Positions 32,193 to 43,117 of a stretch of DNA of 64,000 nucleotides are shown piece after piece; positions within the stretch are counted from its first letter, which is position 1, and each line of letters begins with the position of its first letter. The DNA lies in NCBI GenBank assembly GCA_002840535.1, contig PHBH01000005.1, positions 146,190 to 210,189 on the forward strand, written 5' to 3'. The stretch comes from Deltaproteobacteria bacterium HGW-Deltaproteobacteria-15 (GTDB taxonomy: Bacteria; Desulfobacterota; DSM-4660; Desulfatiglandales; HGW-15). The notes under the pieces are model-generated. The model had not been told where the DNA came from and made no database searches. It saw only the letters and a list, made by a program, of their open reading frames with translations. A program made the translations under genes and the position numbers.

Positions 32193-32612
32193 TCACGGCG
32201 AGGAAGTCTCGACGAGGTTGTTCCGAATGACCTTCTCCATGCGGGCTCTCCAATCCTCAAAGGTCGCTGGCTTTTGGATGTAAGAGCACCTGCGGTATTT
32301 TTCAAAAAGCTCGACGTCCTCCGGCTGGTCGGAGGCCGCGAGCACCACGACAGGTATGTCTTTGTAGCGGTTACGGCTTTTCAGTTCCTGGAGGGCTGCT
32401 CGCCAGTCTTCCGGCGAGGTCTGCAGGTCCAAAATAATTAGGCTCGGCTTCTCCCTTTCCTCAAGATAACCAAAAAGCCCCCGATAGTTGCTGACCAAGT
32501 CGATATTACCTGCAAACCCGGCTAGTTCCAGAGCGTATCTTATGACGACACGGAAATCTTCGTCGTCTTCAGCTAAGAGGATACTGGTTCCGGAGAGCCA
32601 TGACTTTCCCAT
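32193..32612 (-). CDS. Stand-alone receiver protein
   Basis: 139 aa. REC domain with LLAEDDEDF, phospho-acceptor Asp in LIILDLQTSP, and Lys in YIQKPATF. GAGG precedes the ATG. Homologous along its length to the receiver at 30369-30776. No kinase gene lies among the four genes of this cluster. Confidence 0.85.
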   Translation of the reverse strand: MGKSWLSGTSILLAEDDEDFRVVIRYALELAGFAGNIDLVSNYRGLFGYLEEREKPSLIILDLQTSPEDWRAALQELKSRNRYKDIPVVVLAASDQPEDVELFEKYRRCSYIQKPATFEDWRARMEKVIRNNLVETSSP

Positions 32613-33190
32613 GTGGTTCCTCGATCACCTGTGAATAACAAAGGATGCGAGAACGAAGATACGAGATCCAGGGAGTGGATATATTTCAAGTACTATGCCA
32701 ATGGGGTTAAATGAGAAAGGATGTCGTAAAAAGCAAACGAAGCAGGTACTTGGCGTAGAGAAGCGAGACGTTCTAAACTTGGCAATTCGTCTGATTTGCA
32801 CAGATTCTTGTGCAGATTGCTCTATTTTTTGTGCATCTCCATGAGCTTGGAGATTTCCATGTGACGAGTTCCCGCCTGGCCGACCTGCAGAAGGTTTCGT
32901 TAGAAGTTTAAAAGTTTAGAGCGTTCCCATTCACTACTCCCTAGAAAGCTCCTTTACTTTAACTAAGGAATGCCGATTAAATAGACTAAAGTCTTGTGTA
33001 GGTGTGAGAGGTAATTTTTGAGAGATCTTAAATGATCTCAATGGAACAAGAGTTGCTTCGCTCTAAAAAAGGTAGGTTTGTCAACAAAATTTCTTGACAC
33101 CTGTAGGTGAATCTAAGTTATTATCTAGCTTACTTGCTAGCAACTAGCTAGCACCTCACGCGAACTAAATGGATCTAAGACATAAAAAGG
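32613..33190. other. 578 bp AT-rich intergenic region
   Basis: Marks the change from GC-rich to AT-rich DNA. No coding frame is visible. A TTGACA at about 33094 is followed 18-19 nt later by TTATTAT on the plus strand, a possible promoter pointing across the tRNA genes in antisense. Just after it are overlapping GCTAGC palindromes (about 33128-33155, for example TTGCTAGCAA). Confidence 0.4.
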
Positions 33191-33263
33191 TGCCCCTCCC
33201 AGGAATCGAACCTGGATAAGACCGGGTAGCGGCCGGTTGGCTTATCCGTTAGCCGAGAGGGGC
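33191..33263 (-). tRNA. Atypical tRNA, arginine-like body, anticodon position GCU
   Basis: 73 nt cloverleaf: acceptor GCCCCTC/GAGGGGC, D arm GGCT-AACGGATA-AGCC, anticodon arm ACCGG-CCGCTAC-CCGGT, five-base variable loop, T arm CCAGG-TTCGATT-CCTGG, discriminator A. By position the anticodon is GCU, normally serine, but the short variable loop excludes a serine tRNA. A20 and C35 fit arginine identity. Position 33 is C instead of the near-universal U. No encoded CCA; a T-run follows. It may be a degenerate or specialised tRNA. It follows the second tRNA in the same transcript direction. Confidence 0.7.
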
Positions 33264-33270
33264 ATTTGAG

Positions 33271-33353
33271 CGGAGAGAGTGGGATTCGAACCCACAAGAC
33301 GCGGCACGTCGATGGTTTTAAAGACCATTGCCTTACCCTTAGGCTATCTCTCC
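33271..33353 (-). tRNA. Suppressor-type tRNA, serine architecture, anticodon UUA (reads UAA)
   Basis: 83 nt with a complete cloverleaf: acceptor GGAGAGA/TCTCTCC, U8-A9, D arm GCC-TAAGGGTAA-GGC, anticodon arm ATGGT-CTTTAAA-ACCAT, 16 nt variable region containing a GACG/CGTC stem, T arm GTGGG-TTCGAAT-CCCAC, discriminator G. The long variable arm and G73 are serine features. The loop CTTTAAA has U33 and A37 in place and puts UUA at 34-36, complementary to the ochre stop UAA. Ser(UGA) tRNAs have CTTGAAA here, so one G-to-T change accounts for it. No CCA is encoded. A weak promoter (TTGATC/TAAAAT, 33442-33413) lies upstream. Confidence 0.85.
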
Positions 33354-33359
33354 ACTGCG

Positions 33360-33388
33360 AAAACTCTGATCGTAAGATCAGAGTTTTT
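33360..33388. terminator. Perfect 12 bp stem with A/T flanks upstream of the tRNA pair
   Basis: AAAACTCTGATC-GTAA-GATCAGAGTTTT followed by T on the plus strand and A-flanked on the other, so it can act in either direction. For minus-strand transcription it lies between any upstream promoter and the tRNAs and ends in TTTTC, so it could attenuate or process the tRNA transcript. Confidence 0.6.
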
Positions 33389-33745
33389 GCTTACTAGGGT
33401 AAGTACAAGGGTATTTTAAGCCCAACCTGTGGTATAGATCAAGAAAATTTTGTCCAACGTATAGTGATACCTCCCAGCAACCCCAGAAAACACAATCAAG
33501 TAAAATAGTTATCTCGTGGAGAGATCTTGAGAGTTTAACGAAAGGTTCTCAAACTTTTAAATTAGATAACTTTTCTCGAACTCATTGAAAGAAGTTACCA
33601 AAAGAAGGTTACTTGCTTAGGGTAAGCGATACGGATTTCTTTGAAACGGTCGAGGAAGCCGATGCTGCCCAGGACCACGTCAGCGGGAAGCCAGCCGTCT
33701 TGGATGAAGAAGGGCGCGCTTCGGATCGCTTCACCGCAGCATCTT
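33389..33745. other. 357 bp region with a probable gene relic
   Basis: AT-rich left half without genes, containing the candidate tRNA promoter. On the right, minus strand 33732-33595, the frame reads FFIQDGWLPADVVLGSIG then FLDRFKEIRIAYPKQV and a stop, which resembles the C-terminus of retropepsin-like aspartyl proteases. It has no start and no N-terminal half, so it is probably a relic. Confidence 0.35.
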
Positions 33746-33892
33746 CTATGGTTCCTTTTTAAGCCAAAGCTCTTTCAGGTAAATGGGAATCATAGCTATT
33801 GCGCACATCCAATTCTTTTCATTAGTCTGGAACCAGAATTGACACCCACCTTCCTTACATGCATCATTGACCAATGGACACCATTTAACCAT
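33746..33892 (-). CDS. Small cysteine-rich peptide
   Basis: 48 aa. AAAAGGAGAGG precedes the ATG. Sequence pattern WCPLVNDACKEGGCQFW, with a fourth Cys in WMCAIAMI: four Cys spaced 6-4-about 12. Plausible metal or disulfide protein with a hydrophobic C-terminal half. Recognised only as a type of small Cys protein; no function known. Confidence 0.55.
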   Translation of the reverse strand: MVKWCPLVNDACKEGGCQFWFQTNEKNWMCAIAMIPIYLKELWLKKEP

Positions 33893-33947
33893 GCCTCTCC
33901 TCTCCTTTTCGGATACAAGTGTTTTTAAACAATAGAAAGCGTAGAAT

Positions 33948-34019
33948 TCAAATATCAAAAAAGATCAGGGCGCGTTTGCGGCCCAGCCTGTTCATGTCTT
34001 CCATCATCAGATCAATCAT
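33948..34019 (-). CDS. 23-codon ORF with strong ribosome site
   Basis: GGGAGG 7 nt before the ATG; the product begins MIDLMMEDMNRLGRK and ends in a Phe-rich segment. Either a leader peptide, a tiny protein, or the preserved start of a deleted gene. It lies between the HTH protein gene and the Cys-rich peptide gene on the same strand. Confidence 0.3.
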   Translation of the reverse strand: MIDLMMEDMNRLGRKRALIFFDI

Positions 34020-34058
34020 CTTTGGCCTCCCATATCCTTTCACGATGACGGATTGCCA

Positions 34059-34592
34059 TCACCCCAAAACAAGGGTCATAATCCGCTTGAGTTGATCCAT
34101 CCGAATGGCCTTTGTTTGGCCTTGTTCAAGGTTTATAACCGTGTTGCGGTGAAGGCCGATTATCTCGGCGAATTCGAATTGCGTCAACTGGTTCTTCTCC
34201 CGGTAGGAAACAATCAAAGCACCTAGATCCTCCGGGGGCATGATCAAACCGGACAGGGTTTGGTATGTCTTGCGGGGCATTTCGACCAAGACCTTGCCGT
34301 TCTTCATGTCCATGACTTTGCGGAAGGGTTTCCCGAAAGCGGGCTTCTTGCCGGCGGCAATCAGTTCACGAGGCTTGCGTTTGTTGTGACAAAAAGGGCA
34401 TCCGTTGCCGAACGCCCTGTCGGCAATCCGAGCTTGCCACTCATGCCCCTTTTCGCAGACCCACCAGACCTTTCTTGTGGCTCGCGGAGTCACTTGCCGA
34501 GGCATGAGCGATCCATTCTTGGTCGGATGCCATTGCCCGGCAAGCACCGGGTTGACCCTTTGGAGGTTGTGGTCTTTGGTGAGCTTCTTCAT
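34059..34592 (-). CDS. Treble-clef zinc-ribbon protein fused to an XRE helix-turn-helix
   Basis: 177 aa from ATG 34592. Residues about 15-70 match the DUF4379-type zinc repeat found in restriction-linked proteins: LAGQWHPTKNGSLMPRQVTP, VWWVCEKGHEWQARI and GNGCPFC. The C-terminus holds an XRE helix-turn-helix (YREKNQLTQFEFAEIIGLHRNTV). The combination suggests a DNA-binding regulator of this island. No good ribosome site is seen at the chosen start; longer starts add unlikely low-complexity sequence. Confidence 0.65.
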   Translation of the reverse strand: MKKLTKDHNLQRVNPVLAGQWHPTKNGSLMPRQVTPRATRKVWWVCEKGHEWQARIADRAFGNGCPFCHNKRKPRELIAAGKKPAFGKPFRKVMDMKNGKVLVEMPRKTYQTLSGLIMPPEDLGALIVSYREKNQLTQFEFAEIIGLHRNTVINLEQGQTKAIRMDQLKRIMTLVLG

Positions 34593-34778
34593 AAAAGTGC
34601 AGCGGGATGGTAAACTGGGTGCCATTAAAAGCCACGAAGTCAAACACTTTTGACCTCCGTGAGATTGGTGGATTCTGTGCGGTCGAGCTCGGCCTGGGCT
34701 GCCTGGTCGCCTTTGAGGGCCTTCTGCTTCAGCCTTCTTGCCAGCAGACGACGTCCCACTCTCCTCATCCCCCATCAA

Positions 34779-35093
34779 TCATTCGTCCTCCGCTACTAAA
34801 ACCAATGTAGCATTTGTAACATTGACCGAAACATCAACCTGATGTGGTGATATAAACAGCACGCACCCTGCGCCATGTCCTGATTGAATCTCTGGAAGAA
34901 AATGGCCACCTGCCCAACCTGCTTTTTTGGCCTCAGTGGCAAACCAGGCTTTTACACTTTTGCTAATTCGTTTGGCATCTTTGCCCGTACTCTGGTTGTA
35001 AATAGCCAGGATCCGCTCGGCTGTGCAGAGAACAGCTCTGTCCTTCAACTTGCATGTTTTGGGATCAGGAAACTTGTATTTTGGACCGGGCAT
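34779..35093 (-). CDS. Hypothetical protein of the methyltransferase island
   Basis: 104 aa. AAGGAGGT about 7 nt before the ATG. Starts MPGPKYKFPDPKTCKLKDRA; the middle (AKRISKSVKAWFATEAKKAGW) is basic and helical, the end hydrophobic (VNVTNATLVLVAEDE). No family recognised. Minus strand, like every other gene from 33 to 39 kb. Confidence 0.65.
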   Translation of the reverse strand: MPGPKYKFPDPKTCKLKDRAVLCTAERILAIYNQSTGKDAKRISKSVKAWFATEAKKAGWAGGHFLPEIQSGHGAGCVLFISPHQVDVSVNVTNATLVLVAEDE

Positions 35094-35212
35094 AAAGATA
35101 CCTCCTTAGTTTATAAGTTCTTTTTCGGGGCCTACCCGCAGATCGGGTTTTCATGAGAAGCTAAGAAGTTTAGAGCGTCTCCCTCCCTCTCTTAGGAGAG
35201 CAGTCAGCTTCC

Positions 35213-36040
35213 TCAGTTCACTAATCTCTCGAGAATGCCTGTTTGAGTATGGACTCTGAACTCGATATCGCCTTCATCTCTTGTATAAAGAAATACCCGG
35301 TGCGAGTTTTTCTTAACTGCTTGGTTGAACTCTTGTGATGGGTGATCGTAGCAATTATTCTTACCAACCGGCACTACGATATAATCTGGATCCACGGCTT
35401 TGATGAGTTGGTCAGATGTCCAAAAATCGGGATGGTCCTGTAGGGTCCCACCGTGATGCGGGAACTTCAAAACCTTGGCCTTCAAATCCCCTAGATTTAG
35501 CGAACTCCAGACGCTACCTGGGGCATCTCCCCCAAGAAGTAATGAAAATTTACCCACTCTAAAGGTAAGAATCACAGAGTCCTGGTTCTTATCATCGAAG
35601 TGCCCAAAGATGTTTCCGTAATTTGGCCAAAGAACGATAAAAGACGCTCCGAATATCCTTATGACTCGACTTCTAAGAACGGATTTGGCGTGAGCTGGGT
35701 CTACACTGAGAATCTTATCTTTTTCCCCTTCATGGATAGCCCTGCTTATGCGCTCCAGTTCCCTCCCTACTACGTTCTGAAAATTAACAAAAAGCTTTGC
35801 ACTTGAGCCATTCTCTCTCAACCAATTTATAACCTGTGGTAAACCACCAATATGATCATGGTGTAAATGAGAGATAAATATAGCCTCCAGATGCACGTCT
35901 TTGAGAAGTGGAAAAATAGGGCCAAAACAAGCCACATCTACCAGAACTGCTCGTTTGTCAACGAGCCGAGATATCAGGGTGCAGTCCCCCTGCCCAACGT
36001 CGATGAAAACAATCCTATAATCAGGACAATCAGTCGACAT
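35213..36040 (-). CDS. MBL-fold hydrolase (ComEC C-terminal type)
   Basis: 275 aa from ATG 36040 (GGGGAGG 4 nt upstream). Begins IVFIDVGQGDCTL, typical of the soluble ComEC-like MBL group, with the metal motif HLHHDHIGG near residue 60, LLLGGDAPGS, KFPHHGGTL and PVGKNN further on. Such proteins are metal-dependent hydrolases or nucleases. It starts 12 nt after the methyltransferase stop and in the same frame, so the two form an operon and, if the UAA is read through, one protein. Pairing with a DNA methyltransferase suggests an anti-phage function, by inference. Confidence 0.82.
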   Translation of the reverse strand: MSTDCPDYRIVFIDVGQGDCTLISRLVDKRAVLVDVACFGPIFPLLKDVHLEAIFISHLHHDHIGGLPQVINWLRENGSSAKLFVNFQNVVGRELERISRAIHEGEKDKILSVDPAHAKSVLRSRVIRIFGASFIVLWPNYGNIFGHFDDKNQDSVILTFRVGKFSLLLGGDAPGSVWSSLNLGDLKAKVLKFPHHGGTLQDHPDFWTSDQLIKAVDPDYIVVPVGKNNCYDHPSQEFNQAVKKNSHRVFLYTRDEGDIEFRVHTQTGILERLVN

Positions 36041-36052
36041 CAATCCTCCCCA

Positions 36053-38833
36053 TTAATCTGGCTGCATTAGCTCCAATTGGATTTTATCTCGGCTCTCGTA
36101 AGCGTTCTTAAACGGATTGAACCCTAGAATATATTCTTCTGGTTGCCTACTCAGTTTTTCACAGTCTCCGGTGGCTAATTCCATCCACCCCATCGCGCCT
36201 TCTTGAAGTACCCAACCCGGAATGGCAGGAATCGTTCTGAGGCGTATCCCACCTCGGCTTTGATCATAGTTAGATGGGTACTTGTCCATTCCATCGATCG
36301 CCAAGACAACCATGCGCTCCTCTTGAAAAATACCGATGGTCTCGAAAGTCGTTCTTCGGATCCTCTCATCTGTTGAGTATATGAGCACATCCCCATCTTT
36401 CAGATGCTGAGATGTTAGTGGTCTTCCTGTAAGGGGCCTCTTGCCAGAAAACTTGCTTTCTATGCGTTTCCTGTCTTTCTGTGATATGCCGTACAAGTCG
36501 TAAATAAGGATATCAAGCCTCTTGATCTCTTCAGATTCCGCTAATTCATCCTGAAAAAAACTCCGCCCATTCTTAAGAACTTTTTCCGCAGATCTTGCCA
36601 CTTGGTAGATTTCATTTCCCCAAGCTTCCGGAAGAGGAAACTGTTCAAGATCTCTCGTAGAGATCCATTGAGTTATTTTCGTCTCATTGAAATATAGACT
36701 TCCAAGTGGGTGATTTAATAAGGCCCAAAGAGCCAGACAAAAGTCAGTGGAATGAGAAGAATCAATCGAGAAAGCTGCATGAAAATTCTCTGACGGTGCA
36801 ACAGACTTTTCACCTTTGGGTGGAATATCTATAAGAGCGATGGAACCCCAACGAATTCTTTGAGAGCTTCCATGATTGTTTCTGTTGGCCCGAAGGAGGA
36901 CACTAGGCATATCCTTAAAAATCCACTTCTTAAGCTCTTGTCGTTGACTTCTATCATCAAAGTTGGGATCTATTTTATCCAAGGCCTTTAGCTTAACCCA
37001 CTCTACCGCAAGCTGCCGTAGGTCCGAATAAGGGTTTGTCTTCTTCGCCGAACCACTAAAAGGATGCGCTCCAGGGCTAGGCTTTCGACTGCGGTTTCTC
37101 GGTTTGCGAAACCCATTTTGAATCTCATAAAAATCCCTTATTGTTTTCCCTCCCGAGCCCATAGTTTTCAGCACATGTGAAAAATTAGTGGAGACAAAGA
37201 TGTTCTCCTCGCTCAACGTGTCCAACTCTAAAGTGTCTCTAGATTGGGCCGCTCGCCCAAGTGCGGGAACATCTGAGATTGGGAAAATGTGGACGTATCT
37301 ACCTCTTGGCCGTTTTTTGCGTAAGATCCACACCATAGCTGATCTTTTCACTTTTCTAAACCAATCAGGCGGGACAGTCCATTGCTCAAGTATCTGACAG
37401 GTCTCAAGTGCTTTCTTTCTAATATCCCTCTCTTGTTGTTGGTTCAGAAAAGTCTCTGTAAGAACAATCCCCATGAGTCCATCGTTTGGGAGGAGATCAA
37501 TACATTTGTTAAGAATGAAGCCAGAGCGATCTCTTTGTCCCTGTTGACGCGCTTTGACGTTCTTTCCTCCACGAGGGGTTCCACTGGTGGGCCCGAAAGG
37601 TGGGTTCGCGACTATTATAGTAGGCCTTGAGCCAATTGCTGATATCACGTTCCTCTCAAAATCTGTCCCTCTGATATCATAACTAAGGATCTTCCAGTTA
37701 TTGTCATGTGGAGGATGGTAAAGCATGAGAGTCATCTTGGCAATCATTGCGGCGATCGGATCATAATCGTTTCCAAATATCCTTTTGACAAGAATGTGAT
37801 GCCGCTCTTGAAGCGACTGGCCTGAGTATTCCGCATCTCCAAGCCTTTCATAACCGGCAGCAAGCAGACTTCCTGAGCCGCAAGTTGGGTCAAGAAGTAT
37901 TCGATTCTCAGGTCGTAGCTCCTCAATGGGCATTCGCTTCAGAATCGTATGTGCCAAACGAGAACGTGTGTAATGTACTCCATATTGTCTACGCTCTCCT
38001 TCAAGCATAAGTGTCTCATAGATTTCGCCTATCATGTCTAGGCTCACTTGAGACAGGTCATAATTGGTATTAAATGATTGCAGGAAGGTATCCATGAGAA
38101 CTTCATCTTTTAGTGGAAGACTGAAGTAAGTGGGAAGAAGACTTTGTGCATGAGAGAAAAAATCTCGCGCATTGGAAAGGGGCCAACAGTAACCTTCTCG
38201 GTCACGCAGTATTCGTGCTCCCAAAAATTTTATTGCAGCCTCGAGAGCCGAACCTAGTTTGTCATCGGTCCGATAAGTGCGAAGAGATCTGATTGCAGCT
38301 TGAAATTTTCCCACCAATTCTTTCGTTATTATCTCAAAGGCTCCTCCGAGCAAGTTCGGATATAGGTCAAAAATCGAGAGTTGCTGGGCATTCCATTTCG
38401 CAATCTCAAGCCTTCGTGGTGAAAAGAGTTCTTGTTTTTTCTTGAGATATTCTGCGAAACGAGAAAGAGGCACTATATTGTCTTGACGGTGTTTCTCGAA
38501 ATCACCCTCACTCTTGCAGATAGCGGTGGTTCTAATATAAGGTTCCCTCTGTCGATCCCGCCTGCTGAATTCAGCGAATATCAAGACTGGTGTTGCGAGA
38601 GATCTGAAAGGCTTTGTGTCAGAAAAGGATACTTGCTCCACATTTGCAGTCTCCTTCACAGCTATCACAGCTGTATCAGCATCCTTGCGAAGATCGCTTG
38701 AATATGCCACCAGATTCGTGCTGTAGCTTCTGCCTCCCTCAAGTAAAAAAGAGACATCTCTGCTGGTCATCTTTTGACTATAGCCAATCTCCTCCAAAGC
38801 ATGCTCAATCTCTTTTTGGACGTAACAGGACAT
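36053..38833 (-). CDS. N6-adenine DNA methyltransferase (PglX/type IIG-like)
   Basis: 926 aa from ATG 38833 (GGAG upstream). Residues 1-280 are an N-terminal region with nuclease-like features not identified with certainty (VLIFAEFSRRD). SAM-binding motif I LLDPTCGSGSLL is at about 313-324, motif IV IVANPPFGPTSG at about 407-418, preceded by the HsdM-type YGVHYTRSRLA. The C-terminal 400 residues resemble a target-recognition region. Modifies adenine in host DNA as part of a restriction or BREX-like system; no separate REase, PglZ or BrxC gene is in the window. The stop codon is UAA, the only stop between it and the MBL gene. Confidence 0.88.
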   Translation of the reverse strand: MSCYVQKEIEHALEEIGYSQKMTSRDVSFLLEGGRSYSTNLVAYSSDLRKDADTAVIAVKETANVEQVSFSDTKPFRSLATPVLIFAEFSRRDRQREPYIRTTAICKSEGDFEKHRQDNIVPLSRFAEYLKKKQELFSPRRLEIAKWNAQQLSIFDLYPNLLGGAFEIITKELVGKFQAAIRSLRTYRTDDKLGSALEAAIKFLGARILRDREGYCWPLSNARDFFSHAQSLLPTYFSLPLKDEVLMDTFLQSFNTNYDLSQVSLDMIGEIYETLMLEGERRQYGVHYTRSRLAHTILKRMPIEELRPENRILLDPTCGSGSLLAAGYERLGDAEYSGQSLQERHHILVKRIFGNDYDPIAAMIAKMTLMLYHPPHDNNWKILSYDIRGTDFERNVISAIGSRPTIIVANPPFGPTSGTPRGGKNVKARQQGQRDRSGFILNKCIDLLPNDGLMGIVLTETFLNQQQERDIRKKALETCQILEQWTVPPDWFRKVKRSAMVWILRKKRPRGRYVHIFPISDVPALGRAAQSRDTLELDTLSEENIFVSTNFSHVLKTMGSGGKTIRDFYEIQNGFRKPRNRSRKPSPGAHPFSGSAKKTNPYSDLRQLAVEWVKLKALDKIDPNFDDRSQRQELKKWIFKDMPSVLLRANRNNHGSSQRIRWGSIALIDIPPKGEKSVAPSENFHAAFSIDSSHSTDFCLALWALLNHPLGSLYFNETKITQWISTRDLEQFPLPEAWGNEIYQVARSAEKVLKNGRSFFQDELAESEEIKRLDILIYDLYGISQKDRKRIESKFSGKRPLTGRPLTSQHLKDGDVLIYSTDERIRRTTFETIGIFQEERMVVLAIDGMDKYPSNYDQSRGGIRLRTIPAIPGWVLQEGAMGWMELATGDCEKLSRQPEEYILGFNPFKNAYESRDKIQLELMQPD

Positions 38834-39004
38834 AGGTGATCTCCATGTGAGGCAAAGAGTCAACGGACAGGAGCATCTCTCAAATAGAGAATTGGCAGGC
38901 TATACGCCTCTGAAAGTAATCGTTCTCACCGCTTGTGCAAATTGGGCGCGCGCGCCATACATATTGAGTGAAACTTACAGCAGTCAAGGGTCGAAAACTT
39001 AAGG

Positions 39005-39844
39005 TTATTCCCTTGGCACCAGTTCACGGGCGAACCAGATGACCTGGCCGATGATGCGGATGTCGCGGGCTTCGGCTTCGTAGGGGGGGAACTCGGTCCT
39101 GTTGTCGGCGATGATCCGGACGCGGCCGCCCACGAGGTTTTCCAGGCGCTTGACCATTATGGTTTCGCCCATTCCCAGGGCGTAGATCTGGCCGTCGAAG
39201 ATCCGCCTTCTGCCCGTGTCCAGCATGACCACGTCACCGTCCATGATTGTCGGCTGCATGCTTGTGCCCTTGATCGGCATCATGACAAGGCGCTTTGGTC
39301 TGGTACCGATCCGGCGCAACCAGTCTTTTCTGAAGGCGTAATATTCTTTGAATTTTTCAGAGAGGACGAAAGCGCCCCCTCCAGCAGCAAGGTGGGCCTC
39401 GGCCATCGGCACGAAATCGAAGTAGGTGGGATCAAAGGGCATGGGTGCCGGAATCAGAATATCCCCGGGCTCTTCTTCCGCGGATTCTCGGTCGAGAGGC
39501 TCTCGCTGAGCAGCAATCGCCGCGTGTTCTTCCTCCTCCAGCGCTCTCATGAGCTCCTGGGTGCTCATCAGGTCGCCGGTCTCTCCACATACCTCGGGGT
39601 ATTTGTCCCTCGCCCCTGAAAAAGGCGCACCTGCGCCTGAAACGAACCATGTGAGATCAAAGTTGTAGGTTTCGCAGAACTTGGCGATGAACTCCACCTT
39701 CGGATCAGTCGCCATGCTGCGGTAACTGCTTACGGTGTCACCCTTGATGCCCAGCTGGGCGCCGATCTTCGTATTCGAGAGTCCATCCTTCTCGGCTACG
39801 TAGTTGATCGCCCACCTGGTTCGTTCCTTGAGAGAAAGGGCCAT
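39005..39844 (-). CDS. Phage repressor, cleavable S24 type
   Basis: 279 aa. N-terminal helix-turn-helix (NTKIGAQLGIKGDTVSSYRSM), acidic linker, and C-terminal LexA-like peptidase with the nucleophile in KGTSMQPTIMDGDVV (Ser195) and Lys232 in TIMVKRLEN. The AAGGGAF segment at about 150 fits the Ala-Gly self-cleavage site, so SOS induction is likely. ATG 39844 leaves the operator palindrome in the leader; a TTG at 39892 would place it inside the gene. Keeps the prophage silent. Confidence 0.9.
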   Translation of the reverse strand: MALSLKERTRWAINYVAEKDGLSNTKIGAQLGIKGDTVSSYRSMATDPKVEFIAKFCETYNFDLTWFVSGAGAPFSGARDKYPEVCGETGDLMSTQELMRALEEEEHAAIAAQREPLDRESAEEEPGDILIPAPMPFDPTYFDFVPMAEAHLAAGGGAFVLSEKFKEYYAFRKDWLRRIGTRPKRLVMMPIKGTSMQPTIMDGDVVMLDTGRRRIFDGQIYALGMGETIMVKRLENLVGGRVRIIADNRTEFPPYEAEARDIRIIGQVIWFARELVPRE

Positions 39845-39861
39845 TTCCTGCTCAAATTTCT

Positions 39862-39894
39862 GGTTGTCACCCGGTGACAACCAGAGTGACAACC
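39862..39894. promoter_or_regulatory. Repressor operator cluster
   Basis: GGTTGTCAC-CCG-GTGACAACC (39862-39882) is a perfect 21 bp palindrome, followed by another half-site GTGACAACC at 39886-39894. A third half-site lies at 39976-39984, just before the early promoter. Repeated half-sites between repressor and early genes are the standard lysogeny switch layout. Confidence 0.8.
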
Positions 39895-39994
39895 TGGCTT
39901 AAACGCAGACCTTATTTACTTGTTTCCTTTTATCAGGGACTTATCTTTAGAACGACAAATCTTCCAGTTTTTTGAGTGACAACCGATTTTTTCC

Positions 39995-40023
39995 TTGCAC
40001 TGCTCAAAAAATTGGAATATAAC
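39995..40023 (+). promoter_or_regulatory. Early promoter (Pe-like)
   Basis: TTGCAC (39995-40000), 17 nt, TATAAC (40018-40023). The half-site GTGACAACC at 39976-39984 sits directly upstream of the -35. Drives the Ner-like gene at 40078 and probably the transposition operon. Confidence 0.6.
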
Positions 40024-40077
40024 CGTTATCAATTTCGGAAACCCACTTAGACAAACTGGTTCTGAGGTTTAGATCAG

Positions 40078-40329
40078 ATGCATCCGGCCGACATCCAAGC
40101 TCAGCTCAAAAAGAAGGGGATCACCCAGAAAGCCATAGCTGAGGAACTCGGGCTGTCGGAGTTCCATATCTCCGAAGTGATCAACAAGAACCGCCCCTCG
40201 GATCGGGTGATGCGGGCGGTGGCTGCCAAAATCGGTCGGGACGTTCACGAGGTTTTCCCGGAGCACTACTTCAGGCAGAAGCGAAGGAAGGCTTCGGAAT
40301 CGGGCTGCCTGATTGGGGGTTATAAATAA
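40078..40329 (+). CDS. Ner-like early regulator
   Basis: 83 aa, single helix-turn-helix (LKKKGITQKAIAEELGLSEF, then HISEVINKNRPSDRVMRAVA). Position directly after the early promoter and opposite the repressor matches Mu Ner, which shuts down both lysogenic and early transcription. Ends in a short basic tail. Confidence 0.8.
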   Translation: MHPADIQAQLKKKGITQKAIAEELGLSEFHISEVINKNRPSDRVMRAVAAKIGRDVHEVFPEHYFRQKRRKASESGCLIGGYK

Positions 40330-40350
40330 CGCTATACGCGGGGCAAGTCA

Positions 40351-40842
40351 ATGTCTAAGCCATCGAATAGATTAGATCCGGACCAGATGAATCTCTTCGA
40401 CGCAAGGATCGAGCAGTATAGGGACCTCAAAGAGGAGATCCTGAAAGGCGAGCCTCCAAAACCGATCGAAAGTTTCGAGGAAGCATGCATCGGGATAGCA
40501 GCTTCATGGAAACGGGCAATCCGGGAGTCCGGATTGAGCAGGGAGCAGGTGGTAGACAGGATCAACGAGTTCTTCGGATGGGGGAACGGGAGCAAGAAGG
40601 CCCTCTCCATTCACATGTTCAACCACTATCTTTCGAAACCGATTCAGTATCCTCCTCCGGCCTACCTAGTTTTTCCCATCCAGCACATCACCGGGTCGCT
40701 CGAGCCGACCAAGGCATTCGCCGAGCCCGAGGACGCCAAAGTGATCAGCGGGGACGAGGTGCGCCAGATGGCCCTGGGGAAACTGGACGAGACGATCCTT
40801 GAGATGCAGAGGCTGAAGAAGGAGCTGCGGGGGAAGAAGTAA
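40351..40842 (+). CDS. Mu-like early protein, unknown function
   Basis: 163 aa, soluble, with charged C-terminus. Contains FEEACIGIAASWKRAIRESG and GLSREQVVDRINEFF, the latter helix-turn-helix-like. Sits between the Ner-like and transposase genes. No function assigned; possibly an early DNA-binding accessory protein. Confidence 0.6.
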   Translation: MSKPSNRLDPDQMNLFDARIEQYRDLKEEILKGEPPKPIESFEEACIGIAASWKRAIRESGLSREQVVDRINEFFGWGNGSKKALSIHMFNHYLSKPIQYPPPAYLVFPIQHITGSLEPTKAFAEPEDAKVISGDEVRQMALGKLDETILEMQRLKKELRGKK

Positions 40843-40930
40843 CCAAAAAAATTTTGGCCTGGCGGCATACAGGCTTTCACTGACCAAGCGGTACAGAGCG
40901 CGCAGGGAATACGTAGACCGGGGAAGGGAA

Positions 40931-43117
40931 ATGAAACTGGCTGAGACGGTAACGGTAAAGGAGATCGGGGACATTCTGGGGATCAGCAAGCAGGCCGTGA
41001 CCAAGCGGGCCAAAAAGGAAAACTGGCTCCATGAGATAGGCCCGAACCGGATCATGGCCTTCCAGGTCCGCTCCCTCCCTTCCGACGTTCAAAAGGCCAT
41101 CGTCGTACAGAAAGACGTCGCGCCAGACCTGCTTCCGGTCCTCTCTCCCGAGGCGGCGCTCGAAGCGGCAAAGAAGGTCATGTCAGACCTTCCGGGCTCC
41201 CTCGGGGCGTATCCTCTTAATAAGGATAGCTGGACGCCCGAGACCGCCATCTCACAGGAGGTGATCAGGGACCCGAAGGTCACCAAGTGGACCCGGATCA
41301 TCCAGGAGGCCCGGAACGTCCCCAAGGGATGGAAGCGCCGGGCCTGGGTGGAAGCGGTCGCGGTGAAGCACGACACCACCTTTCAGACCGTCTACCGCAA
41401 GATCACCTCCTACGAGAAAAAGGGCCTGGCGGGCCTGCACCATACCAAGAGCAACCGGAACCAACCGAAAAGCTGGACACCCGAGGCGGTGGACTGGTGG
41501 ATTGGCCTAGTCCTCAAGAGAGAGCACAGGAAGCTCGGAAAGAACGTGCTCTATGCCATCCTCAAGGAACAGGCCAGGAAGCGCGGGTGGGACATCGGCG
41601 AATACCGCTCCGCCCTCTGGTGGCTGAAGCAAAAGACCAACCCCCAGCTCTATGCACTTCAGCGGGGCGGTCTGCGGGCGCTCGACAACACCCTTCCCCC
41701 GGTGCTCCGGGACTACAGCGATCTTGCGCCCTTCGAAATCCTGGTGGGGGACCAGCACAGGTTCGACTTCTGGGTCATGGACGAGGAGACAGGGGCCATC
41801 TTCAGACCAGAGGGGTATTTCTGGCAGGACCTTCGGACCAGGTGCTTTTACGGCGGGGCTCTGGACCGGAAATACGATTCCTACCTCATGGGGCTGGCCC
41901 TCCGGATGGGCCTTCGCGTCTTCGGCGCCTTCGGGAGCATCTATACCGACTGGGGCAAACCCGAAACCGGCCAGTACATGATGGGCGTGATGAAGGACAT
42001 GCGGAACCTCGGGCTCTTTGTCGAGCGAGAGGTGGACGTGCCCCTCGAACTGGACGCCGATGCCGAGGACATCAACCCCTGCGCCATCATGCCGGGCACG
42101 CACAAGAAAGCCATTGTCCGGAACGCCAAGGCGAAGATGATCGAGGGCACCTTCGGCAACCTGGAGAGAATCCTCCGGGACGTTTTCCTGGTGCCGGGAT
42201 ACGTGAAACGGCTCGGGGCCGGGCAGGAAGAGAACGAGATCGACGAAAAGGAAAAGGAGCGGCTCGCCCAAAGAGGCAGGCTTCTCACATTCTGGGAATT
42301 CGCGGAGAAGGTCCTCAAGGCGATGGACTACTACAACCGGGAAAAGGCGCACAGGGGCGTGCTGAAGGAGTGGGCCTGGAGACCGAGGCCCAGGACCGCG
42401 ACACCCTTCGATTGCCTCAAAGCCTGCAACCTGCAGGGATGGAAGCCGGTTTACCTTTCCCCCGAGGCGGTGGATCTCATCTTCCTTCCGCGCGCCAAGC
42501 GCACGGTGGACCGGGGCAGGGTCACCTTCGATAACGACATCTACGAGCACCAGGCCCTGGTCGAGATCGAGGGCAAGGTGGAGCTGCGGTTCGACCCGAT
42601 GGAGCCGAACTGGCTTCTGGTTTTCAAGGACGGGCGGTTCGTATGCCAGGCGAAACCGGTGGAGTACTCCAGTATGAAGGACAGGACCCTTGCCCAGCGA
42701 AAGATCGAGGAGAAGCGGCGGATCCGCAAGGGCTTCATCCTGGAATACAGGCGGCTCACCTCGGCCATCCCGGATTTCAGAGAGTACTCGGAAACCCCGG
42801 CGATCGAGCGGGCGGCGGCCCTCGTCACCAGGGAACAGCGTGCCCAGGCCAAAGAGCTGAAGGAGCAGTACAGGGAGCGCACCCCGGAGGAGCTGGCGGC
42901 CGAGGTCAAGGAGATCGAGGAGTACAGGCCGAAAGCGAACCGGCCCATCTTCAGAAACGAGGTGGACCGGTATCAATGGTGCCTGGAGCAGCAAGAGCTT
43001 GAAGAAGCCGATACCGCGTTCCTCACCGAGTACGAGGCGCGGATGGATGAGGACACCAGGAATTACTGGCAGATCTACAAGGATTCACAGAGCGCGAAGC
43101 TTACCGCGCGCGGGTAA
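40931..43117 (+). CDS. Mu-type transposase (MuA-like)
   Basis: 728 aa. N-terminal helix-turn-helix that binds phage ends (TVKEIGDILGISKQAVTKRA, 7-30), a second DNA-binding region (about 105-260) and the RNase H-like core. Candidate DDE residues are Asp274 (VGDQHRFDFW), Asp340 (SIYTDWGKPE) and Glu405 (AKMIEGTFGNLE), in the right order and contexts. The C-terminal tail is the MuB-binding type region. Cuts and joins phage ends to target DNA for integration and replication. Confidence 0.92.
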   Translation: MKLAETVTVKEIGDILGISKQAVTKRAKKENWLHEIGPNRIMAFQVRSLPSDVQKAIVVQKDVAPDLLPVLSPEAALEAAKKVMSDLPGSLGAYPLNKDSWTPETAISQEVIRDPKVTKWTRIIQEARNVPKGWKRRAWVEAVAVKHDTTFQTVYRKITSYEKKGLAGLHHTKSNRNQPKSWTPEAVDWWIGLVLKREHRKLGKNVLYAILKEQARKRGWDIGEYRSALWWLKQKTNPQLYALQRGGLRALDNTLPPVLRDYSDLAPFEILVGDQHRFDFWVMDEETGAIFRPEGYFWQDLRTRCFYGGALDRKYDSYLMGLALRMGLRVFGAFGSIYTDWGKPETGQYMMGVMKDMRNLGLFVEREVDVPLELDADAEDINPCAIMPGTHKKAIVRNAKAKMIEGTFGNLERILRDVFLVPGYVKRLGAGQEENEIDEKEKERLAQRGRLLTFWEFAEKVLKAMDYYNREKAHRGVLKEWAWRPRPRTATPFDCLKACNLQGWKPVYLSPEAVDLIFLPRAKRTVDRGRVTFDNDIYEHQALVEIEGKVELRFDPMEPNWLLVFKDGRFVCQAKPVEYSSMKDRTLAQRKIEEKRRIRKGFILEYRRLTSAIPDFREYSETPAIERAAALVTREQRAQAKELKEQYRERTPEELAAEVKEIEEYRPKANRPIFRNEVDRYQWCLEQQELEEADTAFLTEYEARMDEDTRNYWQIYKDSQSAKLTARG

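Follow-up and report, generated by a model that had tools for sequence, protein, structure and literature searches.

The phage recoding literature drawn on here, in the portions available, centres on the stop codons UAG and UGA, and natural UAA-reading tRNAs seem rarely described. Recoded phages carry suppressor tRNAs that accompany code 15, in which UAG is read as glutamine, or code 4, in which UGA is read as tryptophan. In the available part of one published set, 99.7% of the suppressor tRNAs associated with theta ribozymes have an amber anticodon, and the predicted isotypes of 180 suppressor tRNAs are Gln, Trp, Ile and Tyr (PMC10879173); the same source calls recoding at a gain of 5–10% in predicted coding density. 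Suppressor tRNAs without recoding have a precedent in the zeta crAss-like phages, which, according to excerpts of PMC12386605, have suppressors of the opal and amber kinds, of which some seem inactive.

Other roles have been assigned to phage tRNAs. In the portions of the papers considered, changes in the anticodon loop are proposed to evade tRNA-targeting defences (PMC10264068), phage tRNAs counter the retron and PrrC defences (PMC11555353), and tRNA-dependent lysogeny is another role (PMC10865867). As far as those portions go, none of nuclease evasion, counter-defence and tRNA-dependent lysogeny accounts for the mismatch between tRNA body and anticodon described below. Narrow literature queries for ochre, UUA or TTA tRNAs returned no match among open-licence PMC papers, which is no proof of absence.

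The tRNA gene considered here lies in a 64,000-nucleotide stretch of the chromosome of Deltaproteobacteria bacterium HGW-Deltaproteobacteria-15 (the window). It resembles the suppressor tRNAs of recoded phages in its stop anticodon and its phage link. It differs from the PMC10879173 set, almost wholly amber and of Gln, Trp, Ile and Tyr isotypes in the part considered, in being an ochre tRNA of serine type without a clear recoded gene. A sequence-only reading of the window had stated that most phage-linked suppressors read UAG or UGA, and the amber dominance of that one published set agrees. A link to theta ribozymes would show as an HDV-like ribozyme at the 3' end of the tRNA; an Rfam gathering scan of the window matched only two tRNAs, the coverage of theta ribozymes in Rfam 15 being uncertain. 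With a little more confidence than doubt, we favour the reading that the chromosome has captured a pair of tRNA genes, probably phage-derived, next to a defence-like island and outside a Mu-like prophage, and that they would act as a weak suppressor pair if expressed.

Two adjacent tRNA genes

Across the whole window ARAGORN calls two tRNA genes, which lie side by side on the minus strand:

33271–33353, minus strand: serine-type (class II) tRNA with anticodon UUA, from ARAGORN, Rfam, fold and part-by-part layout
33191–33263, minus strand: second tRNA, class I, with an Arg-like body, anticodon GCU (33230–33228) and C33, from ARAGORN, Rfam, layout and body alignment

The first is a real, complete and rare suppressor-type tRNA. 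It is called by ARAGORN as tRNA-Stop(tta) at 33353–33270 on the minus strand, and the Rfam tRNA model RF00005 matches 33353–33271 over its full length at 65.9 bits (gathering score 29). This is the covariance-model search that the sequence-only reading had proposed; the score far above the curated threshold, as for a class II tRNA-Ser, the anticodon tta from ARAGORN and the long variable arm are what such a search was expected to return. Folded as a single strand, the gene forms a cloverleaf at −32.5 kcal/mol (z −3.5), and none of 200 shuffles was equally stable. Its stems are fully paired (acceptor 7, D 4, anticodon 5, T 5), with Watson–Crick pairing in all 21 base pairs.

The anticodon loop has seven nucleotides, CUUUAAA, comprising C32, U33, the anticodon UUA (33321–33319, minus strand), A37 and A38, the arrangement of an ochre suppressor. 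The variable arm is 16 nt long with a stem, and position 73 is G, as in class II tRNA-Ser. With the anticodon masked, the body aligns best with Ser(UGA), at 81.0, and the best other sense isotype reaches 48.6 (258 distinct tRNAs compared), which places it closest to class II tRNA-Ser. The tRNA is predicted to decode UAA and perhaps UAG too. The gene does not encode CCA, a feature shared by 8 of 45 distinct tRNAs called in host loci; because 6 of these 8 are ordinary, the missing CCA proves little. The sequence-only reading had the coordinates right, and its complete cloverleaf, serine-type long variable arm, discriminator G, U33, A37 and UUA at positions 34–36 are all present in the layout; it left the minus strand unstated and missed the neighbouring noncanonical tRNA.

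That neighbour lies 7 nt downstream and is called by ARAGORN as Ser(gct) at 33263–33189; its Rfam match is full-length at 51.4 bits (threshold 29). Its variable loop is 5 nt long and its D loop reads GGAUA; it also has A73, the anticodon GCU and C33. All 21 cloverleaf pairs are Watson–Crick, and its minimum-energy fold on its own is a structure other than the cloverleaf. The nearest bodies are a phage Gln tRNA (60.7) and a phage Arg(UCU) tRNA (60.5). A20 marks Arg tRNAs, and ArgRS reads A20, C35 and U36. With A20 in GGAUA, a class I body and A73, the partner is Arg-like, though not exclusively so, and in place of an Arg anticodon with U33 it carries GCU and C33.

The partner tRNA would decode the Ser codons AGC and AGU. 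The two codons account for some 0.35 to 0.39 of the Ser codons sampled in host, island and prophage; an efficient Arg-tRNA(GCU) would therefore be costly, and the usage fits a weak one. C33 occurs in 2 of the 45 distinct tRNAs called in host loci, the partner and a second tRNA-Cys. The latter, a Cys(GCA) tRNA (L042, 371–446, minus strand; G000 C38), scores 38.6 bits, the lowest of the 44 listed Rfam tRNA matches in the genome.

Origin and relatives of the two tRNAs

The host has a complete set of Ser tRNAs (CGA, GGA, UGA and GCU), and the D arm of the UUA tRNA, with its 4-bp stem and short loop, is unlike the D arms of all four. Viral contigs were scanned for this contracted D arm, TAGCCNANNGGTAAGGC, together with a YTTNAA loop, a pattern that admits the anticodons UGA, UUA, UAA and UCA. 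The scan gave 8 stretches, each holding a Ser(UGA) tRNA, in loci with 7 to 31 tRNA calls. The body of the UUA tRNA is therefore of a kind that tRNA-rich phages carry, except that U replaces G35. These phage Ser(UGA) tRNAs (L225–L232) share with it the TAGCCTAA-GGTAAGGC type of D arm, the long variable arm and a CTTNAAA-like loop; they differ in their anticodon, UGA in 8/8, and in their tRNA-rich loci, where the window has UUA in a two-tRNA cluster on a chromosome. The earlier proposal of a single change from Ser(UGA) fits both the anticodon, one base away, and the shared D arm.

Overall alignment to the UUA tRNA is better for two Ser(UGA) genes on plasmids, whose D arms are ordinary (87.8 and 85.9), than for the contracted-D-arm phage genes (62.5 to 78.7), so the case for phage origin rests on the D arm and the partner tRNA. 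On these two features the UUA tRNA is probably phage-derived. Neighbouring Ser(UGA) and Ser(GCU) genes occur, in that order, in the host itself (L036, 331–622, plus strand) and on a Pusillibacter plasmid (L233, 6001–6198, plus strand). The window pair, a Ser-bodied UUA tRNA followed by a GCU tRNA, matches this order, but its second member is of class I.

Serine-type UUA tRNAs appear to be rare, as the scans suggest; their patterns were restrictive, and the counts are lower bounds. Across 395 genomes of the phylum, its own included, a UUA-loop pattern occurred at 16 places, and ARAGORN called a TTA tRNA at the window's alone (0 of 15 others). A Ser-biased pattern run over 84,980 species genomes gave 62 stretches, 3 of them with TTA tRNAs. 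These figures agree with the earlier remark that natural ochre suppressors are rare. The three metagenome-assembled genomes concerned (Planctomycetaceae, Acidobacteria and Alectryocaccomicrobium; L123, L127 and L133) combine a Ser body with UUA as the window does, and unlike the window tRNA all have the ordinary bacterial D arm; two acceptor pairs are mismatched in the Planctomycetaceae gene. In the Alectryocaccomicrobium genome (L133, 36–231, minus strand) the UUA tRNA stands beside a Ser(GCU) gene, where Ser(UGA) might be expected; that neighbour is a normal Ser(GCU), unlike the Arg-like GCU partner of the window.

In viral contigs, the strict first UUA pattern had no match; a second pattern gave TTA tRNAs in 10 of 21 stretches and another gave 2 more among 3, three of the 12 being identical. 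The closest viral relative is on IMGVR_UViG_3300031671_000001 (L097), where a Ser-bodied UUA tRNA and a class II UAU tRNA, the sole tRNA calls on this contig in a three-piece scan, lie next to an endolysin gene. Its UUA tRNA is like that of the window in its Ser-type acceptor, G73, long variable arm and CUUUAAA loop, and likewise has an oddly decoding partner. The partners differ: a class II UAU tRNA in a phage, by an endolysin gene, against a class I GCU tRNA on a chromosome. The UAU tRNA of L097 (8149–8242, minus strand) has an anticodon for the Ile codon AUA and a mismatch at 1–72. Other viral UUA tRNAs depart from the Ser type: class II genes with A73, a Leu-like discriminator, occur on contigs of 363 and 377 kb (L199, 4870–4960; L200, 6817–6907), and a Leu-type UUA tRNA (L090, 1623–1709, minus strand) is the single tRNA called on a 36.9-kb contig scanned in two pieces.

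For the partner type, the viral scan demanded a GGAUA body with YYGCTA, and its counts concern that body and anticodon only. It gave 21 stretches, with an ARAGORN gct tRNA in 18 (17 contigs, L206 and L211 sharing one); of the remainder, one was ambiguous and two were not called by ARAGORN. C33 is present in 6 of the 18 (L099, L201, L208, L212, L213 and L221), a count that ignores kinship among contigs, and in 12 of the 18 the gct tRNA is the sole tRNA called on the fetched stretch. The six share the GGAUA D loop, GCU and C33 with the partner tRNA and, unlike it, are not accompanied by any UUA tRNA call in the loci fetched; on L099, whose contig was scanned as three pieces, the GCU tRNA is the single tRNA called, unlike the pair in the window. 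The GGAUA/GCU type had no match among 60 relatives scanned, and of the loci fetched only the window's has both the UUA tRNA and the Arg-like GCU tRNA.

Genomic setting and the use of UAA

The surroundings of the tRNA pair comprise the following features:

33357–33390, no strand assigned: terminator-like hairpin with A/U flanks, directly 5' of the UUA tRNA (fold)
33746–33958, minus strand: small ORF with cysteine, 70 aa, on the tRNA strand and upstream of the pair (ORF list)
34059–34778, minus strand: DUF4379 zinc finger plus HTH regulator, the HTH antitoxin-like (Pfam; NCBIfam below cut-off)
34779–35093, minus strand: 104-aa ORF for which family searches found no family
35213–36043, minus strand: ComEC/Rec2-like protein with a metallo-beta-lactamase fold (Pfam; NCBIfam below cut-off)
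36053–38863, minus strand: N6 adenine DNA methyltransferase, 936 aa (Pfam, PADLOC)
39005–39892, minus strand: S24/LexA-like repressor of the Mu-like prophage (Pfam)
40931–43117, plus strand: MuA-type transposase of the neighbouring prophage (PHROG phrog_310, 8.8e-69; Pfam Mu-transpos_C)

The methyltransferase and metallo-hydrolase genes (35213–38863, minus strand) form a defence-like pair whose similarity to the MADS2, BREX and MBL defence models is weak and below cut-off. No relatives of the methyltransferase were found in the viral contigs searched, and 79 phylum genomes held two besides the window's at E ≤ 1e-20, both distant. The DUF4379/HTH gene has partial matches in 3 phage records; the 70-aa ORF has a single copy in the genome and no NCBIfam or phage match, and the ORFs tested between 32840 and 34059 (95 aa and 70 aa) gave no family match. 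To the left of the tRNAs lie response regulators, and 32260–32835 is paralogous to another stretch of the genome. The Mu-like prophage is recognised by its repressor, MuA, GemA, terminase, portal, protease and head protein genes; around the repressor start (39859–40020) there are repeated GTGACAACC-type motifs and a 13-nt palindrome, likely operators. Between 30 and 40 kb G+C drops to 45–50%, and within the prophage it rises. Together with the methyltransferase, metallo-hydrolase and prophage genes, this matches the AT-rich defence-like island beside a prophage that the sequence-only reading had described.

Gene order and G+C place the left end of the prophage probably between 38863 and 39005, which would put the tRNA pair outside it; repeats near 32600–36100 and 38800–41000 gave no convincing MuA end. 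The pair thus appears to lie outside the Mu-like prophage and downstream of the methyltransferase/metallo-hydrolase island. No usable empty site was found among relatives, of which 0 of 60 were same-genus genomes. When 16 window proteins were compared with the fetched phage contigs, the single match was terminase, in L099, at 29% identity. In tRNA-dependent lysogeny a phage with a tyrosine integrase has its attB in a host tRNA gene and brings a tRNA of matching isotype; the neighbouring prophage is of MuA type and the host Ser tRNAs are intact, but the tRNAs may have come with another element.

Promoter matches near the tRNAs are about as frequent as chance (5 found; shuffle mean 2.4, sd 1.7), and expression of the tRNAs may depend on readthrough from upstream. 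The hairpin has 15 pairs on the plus strand, one of them G-U, and 12+2 on the minus strand, with folds of −23.5 (plus) and −19.0 (minus) kcal/mol and z about −7; it was absent from the terminator scan list.

UAA is an ordinary stop codon in host, island and prophage. When mechanically chosen, non-overlapping ORFs are counted in place of annotated genes, the share that ends in UAA is 6 of 15 at 22–39 kb, 13 of 29 for the prophage, 2 of 16 to the left of 22 kb and, over five further host loci, 10 of 41. Of the six prophage genes identified by family, five end in UAA (repressor, MuA, portal, protease and head protein) and the terminase does not. Recoding of UAA in the window was considered and rejected on stop usage and ORF coverage, which rises from 0.87 to 0.91 in the prophage when UAA is read as sense. 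The window lacks the pattern of stop-recoded phages with codes like 15 or 4, in which a stop is avoided as a terminator and used in frame.

The same comparison was made for five phage contigs with UUA tRNAs. Reading TAA adds coverage of 0.04 (L097), 0.08 (L090), 0.12 (L093), 0.10 (L094) and 0.07 (L095); four of these gains reach or exceed the 5–10% range of PMC10879173, but they come from mechanical ORFs with no null model. The gain from TAG or TGA is similar in L097, L090 and L093 and clearly smaller in the AT-rich L094 and L095. TAA ends 7/43 ORFs in L097, 13/42 in L090, 18/58 in L093, 28/44 in L094 and 33/54 in L095, and, on mechanical-ORF coverage and TAA stop use, recoding is unlikely in L094 and L095.

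Extensions of at least 40 codons follow TAA in 3 of 8 cases in L097, 3 of 14 in L090 and 1 of 32 in L094, and in these contigs and the window they are not consistently commoner after TAA than after TAG or TGA. In L097 the longest of these and one other, like the case in L094, start with a methionine codon only a few codons past the stop and hence resemble a following gene in the same frame. Neither the window nor the five phage contigs yielded a clear UAA-recoded gene. The specialised role earlier ascribed to the tRNA finds no backing in this ordinary use of UAA, and the gene could be a stray.

Possible roles of the mismatched pair

For both tRNAs, phage origin, charging, expression and suppression are inferred. 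SerRS reads the long variable arm rather than the anticodon, and ochre suppressors are weak against RF1 and RF2. A Ser(UGA)-type body with G35 changed to U would still be charged with serine, and the UUA tRNA would compete with release factors 1 and 2, placing serine at some of the UAA codons. The Arg-like partner, with G as its wobble base, would place arginine at AGC and AGU if charged, weakened by C33. Both, if expressed, would form a weak nonsense and missense suppressor pair. Because UAA remains a normal stop, the pair defines no new code.

A real possibility, if the lesser one, is that the two are relics: foreign tRNA genes stranded by an old infection and now drifting, their anticodon changes being early decay and neither of them working. 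The chance-level promoter matches, the ORFs without family match beside the pair, the unusual C33, the partner's lone fold and the want of a convincing UAA target are all consistent with such decay. Intact Watson–Crick pairing throughout both cloverleaves argues against it, as does the recurrence of GCU with C33 in six other viral tRNAs, kinship among them being ignored.

A switch in the defence island by programmed readthrough, in which the UUA tRNA would read the UAA of the methyltransferase and join it to the metallo-hydrolase in a protein of about 1216 residues, is quite unlikely. It draws on the one suggestive case in the window: the methyltransferase stop (36055–36053) is in frame with the metallo-hydrolase gene, a single UAA separates the two, and both are on the tRNA strand and upstream of the pair. 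The likely start of the metallo-hydrolase is ATG 36040, preceded by the Shine–Dalgarno-like GGGGAGG at 36051–36045, and an ordinary operon start is favoured because GGGGAGG, a strong ribosome-binding site, stands four bases before the ATG. Close neighbours, moreover, are in frame by chance a third of the time, and extensions of at least 40 codons in the window follow TAA (6/23), TAG (2/8) and TGA (11/33) alike.

A function as anti-nuclease or decoy tRNAs, whose altered anticodon loops would escape or soak up tRNA-cutting defence enzymes, is very unlikely: the proposed evasion by loop changes and the countering of retron and PrrC lend it some plausibility, but in the available part of PMC11555353 an anticodon change abolished rescue, the codon read has changed here, and no anticodon nuclease was identified among the neighbour genes tested. 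An assembly or sequencing error is the most improbable reading, for although one base suffices to turn UGA into UUA and the 7.0-Mb assembly has 106 contigs and 7.89% estimated contamination, the adjacent tRNA is independently noncanonical and both tRNA types occur in other viral contigs.

The favoured reading of a captured, weakly suppressing pair can be carried further, at the price of becoming speculative and rather doubtful. The pair would then be a miscoding cassette: phages and elements derived from them may carry small sets of tRNAs with a deliberate mismatch of body and anticodon, in which weak charging or decoding, for example through C33, would tune a burst of readthrough and substitution during infection or defence while the code stays unchanged. 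Mismatch sets of this kind would comprise a Ser-bodied UAA reader with an Arg-like AGC/AGU reader in the window, a Ser-bodied UAA reader with a class II UAU tRNA in L097, and Arg-like GCU tRNAs in many other viral contigs. The surprising features are the mismatched pair and the way the GCU/C33 type recurs. The Ser-bodied UUA tRNA and its Arg-like GCU/C33 partner offer a test case for purposeful body–anticodon mismatch in phage tRNAs, and what most deserves to be pursued is that the GCU/C33 type recurs in viral contigs.
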